From Georgenia muralis (GTDB lineage: Bacteria; Actinomycetota; Actinomycetes; Actinomycetales; Actinomycetaceae): DNA of 64,000 bases. The DNA lies in NCBI RefSeq assembly GCF_003814705.1, contig NZ_RKRA01000001.1, positions 1,736,001 through 1,800,000 of the forward strand, read 5' to 3'. Shown one piece after another: positions 26,138 through 55,071 of this stretch; position 1 is the first letter of the stretch, and every line of letters begins with the position of its first letter. The translations under genes and the position numbers were made by a program. The notes beneath the pieces are model-generated. The model saw only the letters and a list, made by a program, of their open reading frames with translations. It made no database searches and was not told the origin of the DNA.

Positions 26138-26623
26138 ATGAGACCGCACGCCGTCCCGGTGGCCACCGGGGTGACCGCCGCGATGGAGGAGGCGCTCGGC
26201 CTCGCCCGGGAGGCCCTCACCAGCGACGACGTGCCGGTGGGTGCCGTCGTCCTGGGCCCCGACGGGCGCGTCCTGGGGCGCGGGCGCAACCGTCGCGAGG
26301 CCGACGGCGACCCCACCGCGCACGCCGAGGTCCTCGCCCTGCGCGAGGCGGCCCGGACGCTGGGCACCTGGCGGCTGACGGGGTGCACCCTCGTCGTCAC
26401 CCTCGAGCCGTGCACGATGTGCGCCGGCGCCCTCGTCCTGGCCCGGGTCGACCGGCTCGTCCTGGGGGCCTGGGACCCCAAGGCCGGCGCCGCGGGGTCG
26501 GTGCGCGACGTCGTGCGCGACGCCCGCCTCAACCACCGCGTCGAGGTGGTCGGCGGGGTGCGGGCGGAGGAGTCCGCCGGCCTGCTCACCACCTTCTTCC
26601 GCACCCGCCGGGCGGAGCCGTGA
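26138..26623 (+). CDS. tadA: tRNA-specific adenosine deaminase TadA
   Basis: A 161-residue zinc deaminase that makes inosine at position 34 of tRNA-Arg(ACG). The zinc/catalytic motif is HAEVLAL (His62, with the catalytic Glu) and PCTMCAGALVLARVDRLVLG. The later DPKAGAAGSVRD and LNHRVEVVGG blocks are typical of TadA rather than of free-nucleoside deaminases. I chose ATG 26138; a shorter start 14-16 codons later is also compatible, and there is no clear ribosome site. Divergent from upp; its stop overlaps the acylphosphatase start by 4 bp. Confidence 0.93.
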   Translation: MRPHAVPVATGVTAAMEEALGLAREALTSDDVPVGAVVLGPDGRVLGRGRNRREADGDPTAHAEVLALREAARTLGTWRLTGCTLVVTLEPCTMCAGALVLARVDRLVLGAWDPKAGAAGSVRDVVRDARLNHRVEVVGGVRAEESAGLLTTFFRTRRAEP

Positions 26624-31875: not shown

Positions 31876-31964
31876 GGTAGCGTGTCCGAGCGGCCTAAGG
31901 AGCACGCCTCGAAAGCGTGTGAGGTTAACAGCCTCCGTGGGTTCAAATCCCACCGCTACCGCCA
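31876..31964 (+). tRNA. tRNA-Ser (anticodon CGA)
   Basis: Acceptor arms GGTAGCG (31876-31882) and CGCTACC (31954-31960) pair fully. The anticodon loop CTCGAAA (31908-31914) in the CACGC/GCGTG stem gives anticodon CGA, reading UCG. A long variable arm is present, as in serine tRNAs, and the T-loop is GGTTCAAATCC. Discriminator G and an encoded CCA end at 31964. Confidence 0.96.
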
Positions 31965-35680: not shown

Positions 35681-36511
35681 TCAGGCCCCGCCGCGGGCAG
35701 ACCGGGCGGCGAGCAGGCCCTCGACCAGCTCGGCGACCGCCTCGTCGGCGTGGTGACCGATCTCGAGGTGGGCGAGCTCCTTGACGGTGGCCAGGGCGTT
35801 GCCCATCGCCACGGGGAAGCCGATCCGGGTGAGCCAGACCAGGTCGTTCTCCCCGTCGCCCACCCCCGCGGTCCGGGCGGGGGAGACCCCCAGCCGCTCG
35901 AGGACCGCCGAGAGGGCGGCCCACTTGTCGGCGCCCTCGGCACCCATCTCGAACGCCGTCGGCATCGACCGGACCATCCGCGGGAACGCCGCCCGCAGCT
36001 CCGCGTCCACCGCGTCGAGGCTCGCCGGCTCGCCGAAGACCACGGCCTTCGTCGTCCGGTCGTAGGGCAGCTCGGCGGCCGGCACGGCGAGCGTCGTCGC
36101 CTCGGGGTTCGCGGCGACGAGGAGGTCGTGCACCACGCTGCCCTGCTCGACGACCATCGCGTCGGCGGTGAACAGGCTCGGCTCGAGGGGCCGGCCCGCG
36201 CAGAAGTCGACGACGGCCCGGGTCTCGGCCGGGTCCATCGTGGCCGTCCACAGCGGGCGGCGGTCGCGGCTGTCGAGGGCGACGGCACCGCCGGCGGCGA
36301 CGACGTAGCCGTCGATCCCGGCGTCGGCGAGGATCGCGAGCGCGGCGTCGGCGATCCGGCCGGTGATGATGACCGGCTCGACACCGGCGGCCCGGACGGC
36401 GGCGAGCGCGCGCAGCGTGCGCGGGCTCACCCGGTGGTCGGCACCGGCGAGGGTGCCGTCGACGTCGAACGCGATCGCGTCGACGTCCACCAGGTGCTCG
36501 GGCAGGTCCAT
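35681..36511 (-). CDS. HAD-superfamily hydrolase, Cof subfamily IIB
   Basis: A 276-residue HAD phosphatase. The nucleophile motif I is AFDVDGTLAGADH with both Asp residues, motif II VIITGR, motif III K in ADKWAAL and motif IV GVGDGENDLVWL. The cap domain (about residues 90-185) is of the C2B type, usual for Cof proteins that hydrolyse sugar phosphates, flavin precursors or PLP. Convergent with the beta-CASP gene by 7 bp and divergent from the dehydrogenase gene. The real substrate is unknown. Confidence 0.9.
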   Translation of the reverse strand: MDLPEHLVDVDAIAFDVDGTLAGADHRVSPRTLRALAAVRAAGVEPVIITGRIADAALAILADAGIDGYVVAAGGAVALDSRDRRPLWTATMDPAETRAVVDFCAGRPLEPSLFTADAMVVEQGSVVHDLLVAANPEATTLAVPAAELPYDRTTKAVVFGEPASLDAVDAELRAAFPRMVRSMPTAFEMGAEGADKWAALSAVLERLGVSPARTAGVGDGENDLVWLTRIGFPVAMGNALATVKELAHLEIGHHADEAVAELVEGLLAARSARGGA

Positions 36512-36610: not shown

Positions 36611-37570
36611 ATGTGGACCGCGTACTGGACGACCGGGCCCGGCGCCGGGGAGCTGCGCACCGAGCCCGCCCGCGAGCCCGGGCCCGGCGAGGTGCTCGTG
36701 CGCGCCCTGCGCTCCGGCGTCTCGCGCGGGACCGAGCTGCTGGTCCACCGCGGGGACGTCCCGCCCGCCGTGGCCGGGCTCATGCGCTCGCCGTTCCAGG
36801 TCGGGGACCTGCCCGGACCCGTGAAGTACGGCTACCTCTCGGTGGGGGTCGTCGAGGCCGGCCCGGCCGAGCTCGTCGGCCGACGGGTCTTCTGCCTGCA
36901 CCCGCACCAGGACCGGTACGTCGTCCCGGCGGCTGCCGTCACGGTGGTGCCCGACGACGTCCCCGACGACCGGGCGGTCCTCGCCGGGACCGTCGAGACC
37001 GCCGTCAACGCCCTGTGGGACGCCGGGCCGCGGCTCGGCGACCGGGTGGCCGTGGTGGGGGCGGGCATGGTGGGCTCCGCCGTCGCCGCGCTCCTGCGCC
37101 GGTTCCCCCTCGAGCGGCTGCAGCTCGTGGACGTGGACCCTTCCCGGGCCGGTCTCGCGGCGGCCCTCGGCGTCGAGCTCGTCGCGCCCGAGACCGCCGC
37201 CGGCGACTGCGACGTCGTCGTGCACGCCTCGGCCAGCGAGGCCGGACTGGCTCGCGGGCTCGAGCTGCTGGGCGACGAGGGCGAGCTGATCGAGATGTCC
37301 TGGTTCGGCACGGCGTCGCCGCGGGTGCCCCTCGGTGCGGACTTCCACGCCCGCCGCCTCACCGTCCGGGCCAGCCAGGTGGGTGCGGTCGCTGCCGCCC
37401 GACGCGCCCGCCGGACCACCGCGGACCGGCTCGCGCTGGCGCTGCGGCTCCTCGCCGACCCGGTGTTCGACGCGCTCCTCACGGGCCGGTCCCCGTTCGC
37501 GGACCTGCCGTCGGCGATGGGCCGGCTCGCCGAGGACCGTTCCGCGCTGTGCCATGTCGTCGAGTACTGA
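36611..37570 (+). CDS. Medium-chain dehydrogenase/reductase, zinc-less type
   Basis: A 319-residue MDR protein. The GroES-like N-terminal domain has VSRGTELLVHRG where catalytic-zinc ADHs have CGxCGTD, so the catalytic zinc ligand is lost; this motif recurs in the BchC-like / ring-dehydrogenase branch. The Rossmann motif VAVVGAGMVGSAVAALLR is near residue 143, preceded by AGTVETAVNALWDAG. It is the first gene of a tight set: 13 bp to the pterin-synthase-like gene and then an overlap to the glycosyltransferase. It probably performs an NAD(P)-linked redox step in their shared pathway, an inference from context. Confidence 0.85.
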   Translation: MWTAYWTTGPGAGELRTEPAREPGPGEVLVRALRSGVSRGTELLVHRGDVPPAVAGLMRSPFQVGDLPGPVKYGYLSVGVVEAGPAELVGRRVFCLHPHQDRYVVPAAAVTVVPDDVPDDRAVLAGTVETAVNALWDAGPRLGDRVAVVGAGMVGSAVAALLRRFPLERLQLVDVDPSRAGLAAALGVELVAPETAAGDCDVVVHASASEAGLARGLELLGDEGELIEMSWFGTASPRVPLGADFHARRLTVRASQVGAVAAARRARRTTADRLALALRLLADPVFDALLTGRSPFADLPSAMGRLAEDRSALCHVVEY

Positions 37571-37583
37571 GCGAAGGAGAACG

Positions 37584-37964
37584 ATGTACCGCCTGACCGT
37601 CCGGGACCACATGATGGTCGCCCACTCCCTGCCCCACCCCGCGTTCGGACCAGCGCAGCAGCTGCACGGCGCCACGTTCGTCGTCGAGCTGACGATCACC
37701 CGGCGGGACCTCGACGACGCCGGCATCGTCATCGACATCGGTGAGGCGACGACCTTGCTGCGCGAGGCGCTCGCGGACCTCGACTACACCAACCTCGACG
37801 ACCACCCCGACCTCGCCGGCACCCTGACCACCACCGAGACCCTCGCCCGTGTCGTCGCCGAGCGGGTGGCGGCGCGGTTGGCGCCGGGGGTCTACGCCGG
37901 CCTGGACGTCGTGCTGCGCGAGCACCCGGACGCGTGGGCGGGGTACGCCATGGACCTGGGGTGA
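37584..37964 (+). CDS. Divergent 6-pyruvoyl-tetrahydropterin synthase / QueD-like protein
   Basis: A 126-residue protein of the PTPS/QueD fold: HMMVAHSLPHPAFGPAQQLH at the start, VVDIGEATTLL-like core and TTTETLARVVAERV with the conserved Glu. The normal zinc triad is His, His-x-His. Here His14 and His28 remain but the third position is Ala30 (HGAT, not HGHN), and the catalytic Cys four residues before is Ala. A strict QueD reaction is therefore doubtful, and similar HGAT variants seem common in related actinobacterial loci. ATG with GAAGGAG. Co-transcribed with the dehydrogenase and glycosyltransferase. Confidence 0.85.
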   Translation: MYRLTVRDHMMVAHSLPHPAFGPAQQLHGATFVVELTITRRDLDDAGIVIDIGEATTLLREALADLDYTNLDDHPDLAGTLTTTETLARVVAERVAARLAPGVYAGLDVVLREHPDAWAGYAMDLG

Positions 37965-39172
37965 ACCGAGCGGGCCTCGCCCTCGTCACGTGGGACCGTG
38001 AGGCCCCCAGCGGCGGGAACACCTACAACGACGAGCTCGTCCGGGCGCTGAGGCTGCTCGGCGTGGAGGTCGGGGTGCACCGGCTCCCCGGGACGTGGCC
38101 GGTCGCGGACCCGCTGGACCGGGCGGCGCTGGCCGAGGTCCTCCTCGCGCAGCCGCTGAGCCTGGTCGACGGGATCGTGGCCTGCGGAGCCCCGGACGCC
38201 GTCGCGACCGCCGTCGGGGCGGGCCGGCGGGTCGCCGTCCTCGTCCACATGCCGCTCGCGGAGGAGCGCGGCCTCACCGACGACAAGCGGGCCGAGCGCT
38301 CCGCGCTCGAGGCACGGTCGCTCGGCCTCGCCTCGGTGGTCGTGGCGACCTCCCGCACGGCGGCGGAGGACCTCCGGACCCGGCACGGTCTCACGTCGGT
38401 CGCCGTGGCCAGGCCCGGCGCCGTCGTGCCGGGCGCGGATGCGGGGCGACCGGGCGCGGATGCGGGGCGGCCGGGCGGCCGGGTGCCGCACCTCCTCATG
38501 CTCGGGGCCCTCACGCCCACGAAGGACCCCCTCGGTCTGGTCCGCGCCCTGGGCCTGCTTCGCGACCTCACCTGGACCGCCACCGTCGCCGGCCCGGGCG
38601 ACGCGGAGCCCGGCTACGCCGCCCAGGTGGCACGATCGGTGGCCGATGAGGGGCTCACCGGACGGGTGCGGCTGCCCGGTCCCCTCATCGGGAGGGCCCT
38701 GGACGAGGAGTGGCGTGCCACCGACCTGCTCGTCCTGCCCTCCCGGACGGAGACCTTCGGTCTCGTCGTCGTCGAGGCGCTCGCGCGCGGGATCCCGGCG
38801 GTCGTCGGGGCGGGCACGGGCGCCGAGGAGGCGCTCGGGCTCGGGCGGGGCAGTGGTGAGGCCGGGCGGTCGGCCGGGGCGCGACGGGATGACGGTGTAC
38901 CCGGTGCTCACCCAGGGAGCGGCGGGCTTCCCGGGAGCGGCGGGCTTCCCGGCGCTCACCCCGGGAGCGGCGGTTACCCCGGTGCCGCGGTCCAGCCGGG
39001 CGACCCCGTGCGGCTGGCGGAGGTCCTCCGGAGCTGGCTCGTCGACCCCGGTGTTCGCGCACGGTGGCGCCGAGCGGCGCTCGAGACCGCACCGCACCTG
39101 CCCACCTGGGAGGACACGGCGCGAGCAGTGGCGGCCGCGCTCGGGCTGTCCGGCATCCCGCCTCGGTCCTAG
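37961..39172 (+). CDS. Glycosyltransferase, GT4-like
   Basis: A 403-residue GT-B glycosyltransferase. The nucleotide-sugar-binding C-terminal half has the ETFGLVVVEALARGIPAV block (E-x7-E type motif), preceded by RATDLLVLPS, and an acceptor half starting TWDREAPSGGNTYNDELVRA. Two low-complexity insertions are present: GADAGRPGADAGRPGG near residue 160 and a HPGSGG/LPGSGG repeat near residues 312-350 inside the C-terminal half, likely a surface loop. GTG start overlapping the pterin-synthase-like gene by 4 bp. It likely transfers a sugar in the same pathway; neither donor nor acceptor is known. Confidence 0.87.
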   Translation: MNRAGLALVTWDREAPSGGNTYNDELVRALRLLGVEVGVHRLPGTWPVADPLDRAALAEVLLAQPLSLVDGIVACGAPDAVATAVGAGRRVAVLVHMPLAEERGLTDDKRAERSALEARSLGLASVVVATSRTAAEDLRTRHGLTSVAVARPGAVVPGADAGRPGADAGRPGGRVPHLLMLGALTPTKDPLGLVRALGLLRDLTWTATVAGPGDAEPGYAAQVARSVADEGLTGRVRLPGPLIGRALDEEWRATDLLVLPSRTETFGLVVVEALARGIPAVVGAGTGAEEALGLGRGSGEAGRSAGARRDDGVPGAHPGSGGLPGSGGLPGAHPGSGGYPGAAVQPGDPVRLAEVLRSWLVDPGVRARWRRAALETAPHLPTWEDTARAVAAALGLSGIPPRS

Positions 39173-39216
39173 ATCCGAGCGGTGGAGGCGTTCTCGGCTG
39201 TCCGGTGCCGATGAGG

Positions 39217-39249
39217 TCGTAGGTTCCGGGTGAAATCGTAGGTTCCGGG
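39217..39249. repeat. 14-bp direct repeat in the convergent gap
   Basis: TCGTAGGTTCCGGG occurs exactly at 39217-39230 and 39236-39249 (period 19), between the convergent glycosyltransferase and RibA-RibD_C genes. No hairpin typical of a terminator surrounds it. Confidence 0.75.
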
Positions 39250-39357
39250 GCGAGTCAGGACGAGACGGTGTGCTGACTGAACCCGCCCGCTGCTGAGTCG
39301 GCGCCGCGCTGCTGACCCGGCGTCGCGACTCGGCGCCCGGCGCCGGGGCACCGCCGG

Positions 39358-40725
39358 TCAGGCTCCGCCCACCCGCGCCGCGGCGAGGTCGAACTCGGTG
39401 CACACGTCGGTGCCCAGGACGAACCGGCGGGTGGGGGCGGCCAGGGCGCCGGCCAGCCGGTCGGAGCCGGCGAAGCGGATACCGGGGACGCCGTCGCCGA
39501 TGAGGATCGGTGCGATGGTGAGCGAGAACCGGTCGAGCAGCCCGGCGGCGAGGAACGCCGAGACAGTCCGTCCGCCGCCCTCGACGAGCACCCGGCCGAG
39601 CCCGCGCGAGCGCAGGAGGTCGAGCACCGCGGCGGGGTCGAAGCGTCGGTCGGCCACCGGGAGGCGCAGCACCTCGGCGCGCGTCACAGGTACCTCCGCC
39701 GACTCGCCGACCAGCCAGAGCGTGGGAGCCAGCCCGTCGGTGAGGACGCGCGAGCCGGCCGGCACCCGTCCGGTGGGGTCCAGGACCACGCGGACGGGGT
39801 GGGGCCCCTCGACCGCTCGCACGGTGAGGCGGGGATCGTCGGCGATCACCGTCGCGCCGCCCACCACGACGGCGTCGACGAGAGCACGCAGCCGGTGCAG
39901 GTGCTCGTGGTCCTCCTCACCGGTGATGTCCTCGGCGTCGCCCGACCGGGCCGCGATGAACCCGTCCGCGCTCTGGCCGAGCTGGGCGATCGTCGCCACC
40001 GGGCCGAGGGCCACGAGCGGCCCGTACCGCTCGAGCAGGTCCGCGTCCTCGGCGCTGGGGGCCGCGGCCGGCACACGGCCGGCCACGAGCTCGCCCCACA
40101 CACCCGGCAGGGCGTCGTCGTGGCCCATCCGCATGCGCTTGGTGGTGAGGTAGAAGGCGTTCTCCGGCCGGTCGGGCACCGGCAGCCGACGCCGCGCGAC
40201 CACCTCGATGCCGTGCTCCGCGAGCTTGGCGGACTTGTCGGGGTTGGACGACATCAGCCGGATGCGCCGGGCGCCGAGGTCGTGGAGGATCTCCGCGGCC
40301 TCGTCGTACGCGCGGGCGTCGGCGGGGTAGCCGAGGGCGAGGTTGGCGTCGACGGTGTCGACGCCGGCGTCCTGAAGCGCGTAGGCCTCGAGCTTGGCCA
40401 GGAGGCCGATGCCCCGGCCCTCGTGGCCGCGCACGTAGACCAGGACCCCGCGCCCCTCGAGCGCGATCTCGCGCAGGGCGGCGGAGAGCTGCTCGCCGCA
40501 GTCGCAGCGGAACGAGCCGAGAGCGTCGCCGGTGAGGCACTCGGAGTGCACCCGGACGAGCGGCGCGAGGTCCTCCTCGGCCGCGACGTCGCCCATGACG
40601 AGCGCCACGTGACCCAGGCCCTCGGCGCCGTCGTAGCCGTGCATCTCGAAGACGCCGTGCTCGGTGGGGAGGGTGGTGGAGACGACGCGCCGCACGCCGT
40701 CGCGCGGGAGGGGGACGGCAGACAT
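39358..40725 (-). CDS. GTP cyclohydrolase II (RibA) fused to RibD C-terminal reductase
   Basis: A 455-residue fusion. Residues about 10-205 are GTP cyclohydrolase II with the zinc cysteines in SECLTGDALGSFRCDCGEQL and the active-site block GHEGRGIGLLAKLEAYALQD. Residues about 240-455 are a RibD-C/dihydrofolate-reductase-like domain (GQSADGFIAARSGD, DAVVVGGATVIADDPRLTVR, LVEGGGRTVSAFL). Together they could cleave GTP and reduce the ribosyl side chain. There is no DHBP synthase domain and no riboflavin genes nearby, so it need not serve riboflavin. It converges with the glycosyltransferase gene across 185 bp, and its partners are probably that set. ATG start. Confidence 0.88.
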   Translation of the reverse strand: MSAVPLPRDGVRRVVSTTLPTEHGVFEMHGYDGAEGLGHVALVMGDVAAEEDLAPLVRVHSECLTGDALGSFRCDCGEQLSAALREIALEGRGVLVYVRGHEGRGIGLLAKLEAYALQDAGVDTVDANLALGYPADARAYDEAAEILHDLGARRIRLMSSNPDKSAKLAEHGIEVVARRRLPVPDRPENAFYLTTKRMRMGHDDALPGVWGELVAGRVPAAAPSAEDADLLERYGPLVALGPVATIAQLGQSADGFIAARSGDAEDITGEEDHEHLHRLRALVDAVVVGGATVIADDPRLTVRAVEGPHPVRVVLDPTGRVPAGSRVLTDGLAPTLWLVGESAEVPVTRAEVLRLPVADRRFDPAAVLDLLRSRGLGRVLVEGGGRTVSAFLAAGLLDRFSLTIAPILIGDGVPGIRFAGSDRLAGALAAPTRRFVLGTDVCTEFDLAAARVGGA

Positions 40726-54983: not shown

Positions 54984-55071
54984 TGGCGGAGGATGGGGGA
55001 TTCGAACCCCCGAGGGCTTGCACCCAACACGCTTTCCAAGCGTGCGCCATAGGCCACTAGGCGAATCCTCC
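54984..55071 (-). tRNA. tRNA-Ser (anticodon GGA)
   Basis: Minus-strand serine tRNA: acceptor arms GGAGGAT and ATCCTCC pair fully, discriminator G and encoded CCA at 54984-54986. The anticodon loop TTGGAAA in the CACGC/GCGTG stem gives GGA (bases 55035-55037), reading UCC/UCU. A long variable arm and GGTTCGAATCC T-arm agree with tRNA-Ser. Confidence 0.97.

Follow-up and report, generated by a model that had tools for sequence, protein, structure and literature searches.

Closest described systems

By sequence, the best solved relative of the PTPS-fold protein considered here is SCO6650 of Streptomyces coelicolor (PDB 3d7j), with 114.1 bits, or 152.9 bits when a profile was used. The protein is encoded in a 64,000 bp stretch of the Georgenia muralis genome (C1:1736001-1800000 of a one-contig genome of 4.14 Mb; hereafter the window), as the second gene of a trio for an MDR-superfamily dehydrogenase (MDR), the PTPS-like protein and a GT4-type glycosyltransferase (GT). 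Beside the trio lies a gene for a GTP cyclohydrolase II (GCHII) fused to a RibD_C reductase domain. The 3d7j structure has been in the PDB since 2008, where it is named as an uncharacterized protein, and the paper belonging to it is said to report neither PTPS activity nor zinc in SCO6650. The GCHII proteins of S. coelicolor were reportedly studied by Spoonamore and colleagues in 2006, and one of them, SCO6655, which has Met at the switch position, is said to stop at the formyl compound. The preliminary description of the four genes had taken their product to be undescribed. Among the listed matches in the open-licence literature, none deals with the cluster itself, but the family is not wholly undescribed, as the SCO6650 structure and the 2006 paper, with the SCO6655 relatives, are on record.

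In GCHII, a Met/Tyr switch decides whether the reaction stops at the formyl compound, and Tyr is needed for the formation of 2,5-diamino-6-ribosylamino-4(3H)-pyrimidinone 5'-phosphate (DAROPP); the ribityl compound corresponding to DAROPP is referred to as DARIPP. Pockets of the PTPS type recognise a 2-amino-4-oxo ring. According to PMC9478397, BrbF, a formamidase first annotated as a creatininase, deformylates the formyl compound to DAROPP in riboflavin synthesis. The Lys of RibD favours the deaminated substrate, and the Thr35Lys form of yeast RIB7 prefers it approximately threefold (PMC3631187). Subfamilies of PTPS are marked by the signatures CxxxHGH, CxxxxxHGH and ExxHGH (PMC5041015).

On balance, we favour the view that the trio and the fusion represent a pared-down Georgenia form of a gene cluster of the SCO6650 type, which is widespread in actinobacteria and makes a glycoside of a 2-amino-4-oxo-pyrimidine or pterin from GTP. 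A GTP-derived pathway that has not been described probably lies behind this cluster.

The locus and the samples

The trio is on the forward strand. The MDR gene is first (36611-37570, 319 aa; recognised from its translation and from sub-threshold Pfam and NCBIfam matches) and is separated by 13 bp from the PTPS-like gene (37584-37964, 126 aa; PF01242, 85.5 bits), which overlaps the GT gene (37961-39172, 403 aa) by 4 bp (GTGA), the GT start codon being GTG. The fusion gene (39358-40725, reverse strand, 455 aa; PF00925, 211.5 bits, and PF01872, 145 bits) includes the GCHII domain at 40111-40698 and the RibD_C reductase domain at 39370-40005, both on the reverse strand. The coordinates, families and 13 bp and 4 bp junctions in the preliminary description were confirmed by translation, Pfam and NCBIfam. 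The trio and the fusion are convergent, with 185 bp between their ends; thus the fusion lies beside the operon and is not part of it, and the four genes do not form one operon. A promoter and terminator scan returned 0 sites.

Conservation was examined in a family sample of 61 genomes and a class sample of 246 genomes, the latter used for both the PTPS-like and the GCHII counts. Three sets of loci were compiled, namely the best 80 of at least 510 PTPS-like relatives in named genomes (the named loci, mostly from the Arthrobacter group), 30 class loci hand-picked from 39 places (29 genomes), and seven family loci. The tallies for cassette loci cover 117 rows, in which the three sets overlap in part and near-duplicates are present (e.g. 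L040 and L035, and L069 and L156, are the same loci). Neighbourhoods were fetched for 8 kb or less on each side, and contig ends shorten some of them. One class locus, L182 (genome G111), is not a true member, although the totals of 30 class loci, 117 rows and 31 Tyr loci (see below) still count it. This locus includes homologues of the MDR, PTPS, RibD_C and GCHII genes, has PTPS-III-like residues (Glu, HGH and His) and a Lys-type reductase, and possibly represents a separate pathway.

Conservation of the trio and its link to GCHII

A PTPS-domain gene was found in seven of the 61 family genomes, and all seven have the same trio and the same fusion, which argues that the arrangement is not due to chance. 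The MDR gene adjoins the PTPS-like gene, directly upstream, at all 80 named, all 30 class and all seven family loci. The GT gene is directly downstream of the PTPS-like gene at 71 of the 80 named, 29 of the 30 class and all seven family loci. The MDR and PTPS-like genes are therefore the core, and the GT gene is nearly always there. One class genome (G069) has two MDR-PTPS-like-GT sets, on separate contigs (L166 and L167).

Two or more GCHII genes are present in 34 of the 38 class genomes that have the PTPS-like gene versus 14 of the 208 that do not (Fisher, 4.5e-26). If the divergent match in G111 is recounted as a negative, these figures become 33/37 versus 15/209 (p 5.6e-25). Inside families, genomes with versus without the PTPS-like gene had at least two GCHII genes in 13/13 versus 1/8 cases in family f25, 7/8 versus 0/13 in f23, and 3/3 versus 0/9 in f20. 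The genomes counted are related, and this stratification by family is the only correction for kinship. The co-occurrence across actinobacteria that had been proposed is strongly borne out by these counts and by the conservation of the trio.

The preliminary description had further expected the PTPS-like and GT genes to be always next to the RibA-RibD_C form. This does not hold, as in other lineages GCHII is a separate gene or goes with a creatininase-family gene, and neither gene is nearby in most loci of the Arthrobacter group. Some Arthrobacter-group loci have only the MDR and PTPS-like genes. Matches to deaminases were seen near 25 loci of this group, and the one that was tested, at L059, is TadA-like (144.5 bits; cut-off 150).

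The PTPS-like protein

Judged from its residues and fold, the PTPS-like protein is a member of the SCO6650 family and not a pterin synthase of a known type. Its AlphaFold2 model (pLDDT 95.7) matches 3d7j with a TM of 0.94, 50 % identity and a root-mean-square deviation of 1.5 Å; QueD of E. coli and human PTPS rank below it. At the positions of the Cys, the third His and the catalytic His, the alignment has Ala, Ala and Tyr in SCO6650 as in the window protein. Across the 117 rows, the position of the QueD catalytic Cys is Ala in 116 (the window protein reads AQQLHGA), that of the third zinc His is Ala or Val in 116, and that of the catalytic His is Tyr in 114 (Tyr68 in the window). The Asp of the Asp-His pair is variable, with D67 retained in the window protein. 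Glu113 and Glu85 are invariant (117/117 rows), and 29 columns are invariant among 20 diverse rows. We take the residue roles used here, i.e. those of the Cys, the His residues, the zinc ligands and the LDH Asp-His, and Glu113 as the Glu that anchors the pterin, to be as in QueD and PTPS.

The three published PTPS signatures are all absent from 116 of the 117 rows, the exception being the PTPS-III-like protein of L182. The score against the QueD model, 50.3 bits, is below the cut-off of 89.25. The T-fold and Glu113, which are features of COG0720 enzymes, are still present. With the catalytic and zinc residues gone and Glu113 kept, the protein would thus have a pocket of the pterin type that lacks the established machinery. 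The label of divergent pterin synthase needs changing in so far as it implies a synthase of a known type.

The window also differs from the fetched Streptomyces clusters, which have a separate non-Tyr GCHII and a creatininase-family gene where the window has a Tyr GCHII fused to a reductase. In PMC3610822, SCO6652 is entered as a hypothetical protein in a table of first versus second mycelium of S. coelicolor.

The GCHII switch residue and the creatininase-family gene

The fusion passes TIGR00505 (220.8 bits; cut-off 205.85). In an alignment of cassette and riboflavin GCHII sequences, it keeps three Cys residues, Cys63, Cys74 and Cys76, presumably the zinc ligands, and has Tyr115 (codon 40381-40383) at the switch position. 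The three Cys are likewise kept in the fetched Streptomyces relatives of the SCO6655 type (L115 and L118). With Tyr115, the window fusion is predicted to go on to DAROPP, unlike SCO6655 as reportedly described in 2006.

The cluster GCHIIs fall into three groups in a tree, namely the Tyr fusions (18 rows, 98/99), a second Tyr group on a long branch (11 rows, 100/99), and a non-Tyr group (15 rows, 97/86). The GCHII of L182 stands alone, outside all three. A creatininase-family gene was found within the fetched stretch at all 15 non-Tyr clusters (Met in nine, Leu in four and His in two) versus none of the 31 Tyr clusters, and at none of the 71 loci where a GCHII was not found. This parallels the BrbF case, in that a creatininase-family gene accompanies the cluster GCHII that lacks the switch Tyr. 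However, the creatininase-family gene is absent from the window's own cluster, and the context of the clusters is not riboflavin synthesis. Taken with the chemistry of BrbF, the match between this gene and the switch residue suggests that both designs would end at DAROPP. By this analogy, there could be one INTERMEDIATE and two routes, one via a Tyr GCHII and the other via a non-Tyr GCHII and a creatininase-family enzyme, both leading to DAROPP.

The reductase domain, the MDR and the GT

The fusion lacks the N-terminal deaminase domain of RibD and has the GCHII domain in its place. At the position of the bacterial RibD Lys (Lys152 of E. coli RibD), the window reductase has Gln248. Among 38 cassette reductases, this position is Gln in 24, Ser in 13 and Lys in one (L182), compared with Lys in 6/6 operon RibD proteins. 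The solved chains nearest to the reductase half are 6p8c, which is named as a DAROPP reductase (101.5 bits), 2azn, the RIB7 of Methanocaldococcus jannaschii (77.8 bits), and the RibD 7lrh (71.8 bits). The RIB7-type reductases 2azn and 6p8c are thus the nearest by sequence, and the window reductase, like them, has no Lys at the position for substrate choice. It differs from them in its fusion to GCHII and in its score, which is below the cut-off of the archaeal family, and the cassette reductases have Gln or Ser in place of the fungal Thr. A reductase without this Lys should leave the 2-amino-4-oxo ring of the cassette product intact, and the cassette reductase should, on this prediction, act on DAROPP without deamination. 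A RibD_C gene was found near all 31 Tyr-type clusters.

The MDR has Ser38 (in SGVSRGTE) at what we take, from the motif, to be the canonical position of the catalytic zinc Cys, in agreement with the earlier statement that it has no catalytic zinc ligand. S38, G40 and E42 are invariant across 113 rows. The AlphaFold2 model (pLDDT 92.6) has MDR alcohol and polyol dehydrogenases as its nearest folds. The window MDR thus shares the MDR fold and a partial BchC match with BchC and the zinc MDR dehydrogenases, but it differs from them in being far below the BchC cut-off (42.6 versus 291.25 bits) and in having Ser where the catalytic zinc Cys would be. The GT passes the cut-off of Glycos_transf_1 (PF00534, 67.1 over 26.4 bits), which places it in GT4 with the GT-B fold. 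It has Gly/Pro-rich repeats of the GSGGLPG type near its C-terminal third (38850-38995), and the homologue in another genome of the genus (G052) is 81 % identical over 414 aligned columns.

The riboflavin connection

In the window's genome (G000), the fusion is the sole match to PF00925, the GCHII model. The ribD, ribE, ribB and ribH genes are grouped at C1:3.26 Mb, and a GCHII is not among them. As the fusion is the only GCHII, it probably also starts riboflavin synthesis in this genome, a correction to the preliminary description. The related claim that riboflavin genes are not nearby is correct for the neighbourhood but not for the genome; queuosine and folate genes were not searched. The expectation that the cassette never occurs with ribB, ribE or ribH was upheld, as these genes were found near none of the 117 loci, with positive controls of 6/6 for each gene.

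Three further genomes (G052, G008 and G013) have one GCHII together with RibB, RibE and RibH, and in another (G281) the single GCHII is in the cassette, with RibE and RibH present. If riboflavin is made in these genomes and in G000, the fusion or cluster enzyme must start it, since there is only one GCHII. In the tree, the fusions are one group, apart from the riboflavin enzymes of the family (5 rows, 100/93), and it seems, by inference, that the cluster enzyme took over the riboflavin GCHII role in the sole-GCHII genomes. Among the 54 family genomes without a PTPS gene, GCHII is present in 12 and RibH in the same 12, a pattern to which G007 (described next) is an exception.

Two genomes (G022 and G041) have both the fusion beside the trio and an ordinary RibBA adjoining RibH. 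Another genome (G007, 98 % complete, 3 % contamination) has the cassette and a fusion that is 80 % identical and without a stop, and matches to RibH, RibB and lumazine-binding RibE were not found in the genome. Among its 16 RibD_C-domain matches, the fusion is the best and the next has 90 bits, compared with 151-170 for the rib-operon RibD of six relatives; an operon-like RibD was thus not found in G007, where deaminase genes were not searched. A fragmented draft (G093, 94 % complete) has one GCHII, in the cassette, and matches to RibE and RibH were not found in it. G007 and G093 argue for a non-riboflavin use of the cluster GCHII, and the possibility that the fusion is purely a riboflavin gene was rejected on the basis of G007, G022 and G041.

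Proposed pathway and alternatives

In the pathway we propose, GCHII would open GTP to give DAROPP. In the non-Tyr lineage, GCHII would halt at the formyl compound and the creatininase-family enzyme would take off the formyl group. The reductase domain would reduce the ribose of DAROPP directly, without deamination, giving DARIPP with its pterin-like 2-amino-4-oxo pattern kept. Though no catalyst by the established mechanism, the PTPS-like protein would bind the ring via Glu113 and may carry out ring closure or side-chain chemistry of a new type, or serve as a binding scaffold. The zinc-less MDR would supply a redox step and the GT4 enzyme would add a sugar. In the window's genome, the same fusion would also supply DAROPP to the riboflavin operon. 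This order of steps is the best supported one. The analysis itself shows the anatomy of the genes, their conservation and co-occurrence, the residue changes and the single GCHII; all catalytic steps, the substrates and the product are inferred, the entry steps from family chemistry and residue evidence. For the GTP-derived, glycosylated product that had been suggested, the link to GCHII and the non-riboflavin role suggested by G007 are in favour; the product may be glycosylated.

Several observations weigh against this pathway. GCHII is near only 15, and RibD_C near only 17, of the 80 named loci. In most Arthrobacter-group loci, neither a GCHII nor a reductase was found in the fetched flanks of at most 8 kb, so that adjacency is not universal. 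A RibD_C gene is near three of the 15 non-Tyr clusters, so that the reductase step is not common to all clusters. The reductase has 112.8 bits on the archaeal-type model TIGR01508 (cut-off 186.45) and scores higher, 120.7 bits, on the model of the RibD C-terminal domain (cut-off 150.15). The link between the creatininase-family gene and the switch residue is confined to one GCHII clade, in rows that include near-duplicates, and as the non-Tyr GCHIIs are one tree group it may reflect a single evolutionary event. The one creatininase representative that was scored (L181) is below the cut-offs of the MftE, creatininase and ArfB models; its best match is MftE (133.7 of 172 bits), and its likeness to ArfB is weak (36.5 of 180 bits). 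Nine of the 14 class genomes that have multiple GCHII genes and no PTPS-like gene belong to family f10, in which nine of the 19 sampled genomes have at least two GCHII genes and none has the PTPS-like gene. Another use of the extra GCHII genes therefore probably exists in f10. The GCHII-rich genomes of this family (e.g. G219, G063, G091 and G199) carry two to four GCHII genes.

Some of these observations would also fit other explanations. The scarcity of nearby GCHII genes in Arthrobacter-group loci is compatible with the fusion being simply the riboflavin RibA of its lineage, with a spare reductase domain, retained by chance or inertia beside an unrelated MDR-PTPS-like-GT operon. That the fusion is convergent and not co-transcribed with the trio points the same way, as does its being the sole GCHII in G000, with RibB, RibD, RibE and RibH, and the single GCHII with RibB and RibH in G052, G008 and G013. 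However, a RibBA by RibH accompanies the fusion in G022 and G041, G007 has fusion and trio and yet no match to RibB, RibE, RibH or an operon-like RibD, the GCHIIs that adjoin the trio come from three separate clades, depending on the lineage, and multiple GCHII genes go with the trio inside f25, f23 and f20, and we regard this explanation as decidedly unlikely. The same Arthrobacter-group loci, together with the CDP-alcohol transferase and LPG_TM membrane genes of the wider clusters, could mean that the trio acts on some other substrate, such as a sugar nucleotide or cell-wall precursor, and is tied to GCHII by an envelope or stress function and not by chemistry. The occurrence of a pterin-fold protein with an invariant Glu113 next to GCHII and to a reductase that lacks the RibD Lys suggests shared chemistry instead, and we regard this alternative as very unlikely.

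Two further alternatives concern the PTPS-like protein. It may be a binding or regulatory T-fold protein and no enzyme, leaving GCHII, the reductase, the MDR and the GT to make a ribityl-pyrimidine glycoside. The near-universal replacement of the catalytic Cys, catalytic His and third zinc His, with fold and Glu kept, speaks for such a binder, but the 29 invariant columns fit an enzyme with new chemistry equally well, and we consider the binder unlikely. A drifted queuosine, folate or biopterin gene would be consistent with PF01242 membership, with the weak QueD match and with its being the only PTPS-domain match in the genome. Against this, the score is under the QueD cut-off, the published motifs are missing from nearly every row, and its conserved neighbours proved to be GCHII, RibD_C and other cluster genes (QueC, QueE and FolE were not searched). 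This origin is highly improbable, and a role in queuosine, folate or biopterin synthesis was rejected on the missing motifs, the partner genes of those pathways not having been searched.

Wider clusters and neighbouring genes

Beyond the trio, further genes occur in varying sets in Streptomyces, Geodermatophilaceae, Kocuria and others. A S-adenosylmethionine (SAM) methyltransferase is near the trio at 23 of the 30 class and 12 of the 80 named loci, a CDP-alcohol phosphotransferase at 25/30 and 11/80, an LPG_synthase-TM-type membrane protein at 25/30 and 10/80, and a sulfatase-like protein at 13/30 and 2/80. The last label is a weak one, as, of two proteins tested, one has 28.8 bits (cut-off 25) and the other has no match. 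At one Geodermatophilus locus (L116:4587-6947), a CDP-alcohol phosphotransferase and a large domain resembling the sulfatase-like protein are in one open frame.

A match to the cluster SAM methyltransferase was not found in the window's genome. The possibility that this gene is located elsewhere in the eight genomes searched was rejected, since only matches of 22.2 and 19.5 bits were obtained, in two of them. A relative of the CDP-alcohol transferase does occur outside the cluster in G000, G052, G022 and G062, with weak matches in G008 and G041, and no other cluster gene was detected by the models within approximately 8 kb on each side of it in the first four. In G000, this relative (C1, approximately 3788020-3788777; L196:8018-8778) is split between two frames, seemingly by a frameshift, and what looks like a short tandem duplication lies at the break; the G052 copy continues in one frame.

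From these neighbour genes alone, the full cluster might be read as making a membrane-linked, pigment-like molecule. A GTP-derived ribityl-pyrimidine or pterin head would be glycosylated by the GT4 enzyme, methylated, coupled by the CDP-alcohol phosphotransferase, via a phosphate, to a lipid or polyol, and moved or processed by the LPG_synthase-TM-type protein and the sulfatase-like hydrolase. We regard this extended reading as speculative and unlikely. If true, Actinomycetota would have a new class of glycophospholipid with a pterin or pyrimidine head, and in Georgenia and most Arthrobacter-group loci only the core genes would have stayed together.

Upstream of the trio in the window is a divergent gene for a Cof-type HAD phosphatase (35681-36511, reverse strand; PF08282, 141.5 bits). 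This gene is present at four of the seven family and three of the 80 named loci, and is probably a local neighbour or an optional phosphatase. Its match to a model for phosphatases of riboflavin metabolism is weak (47.4 of 220 bits). A deaminase-like stretch at 26156-26575, approximately 10 kb from the trio, is 39 % identical to the deaminase part of RibD over 147 columns. The region is flanked by tRNA-Ser genes on opposite strands, at 31876-31964 and 54984-55071 (anticodons cga and gga).

Significance

In many actinobacteria, the analysis ties an orphan structure, 3d7j, to a dehydrogenase, nearly always a glycosyltransferase, and multiple GCHII genes, and so to a pathway that can be tested and whose entry compound is predicted. 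In the match between the switch residue and the creatininase-family gene there is a concrete explanation of how one lineage may tolerate a cluster GCHII that halts early. If the reading of the sole-GCHII genomes is true, the opening step of vitamin B2 synthesis was taken over by a specialised enzyme in some genomes, which would matter both for annotation and for knock-outs of the cluster.

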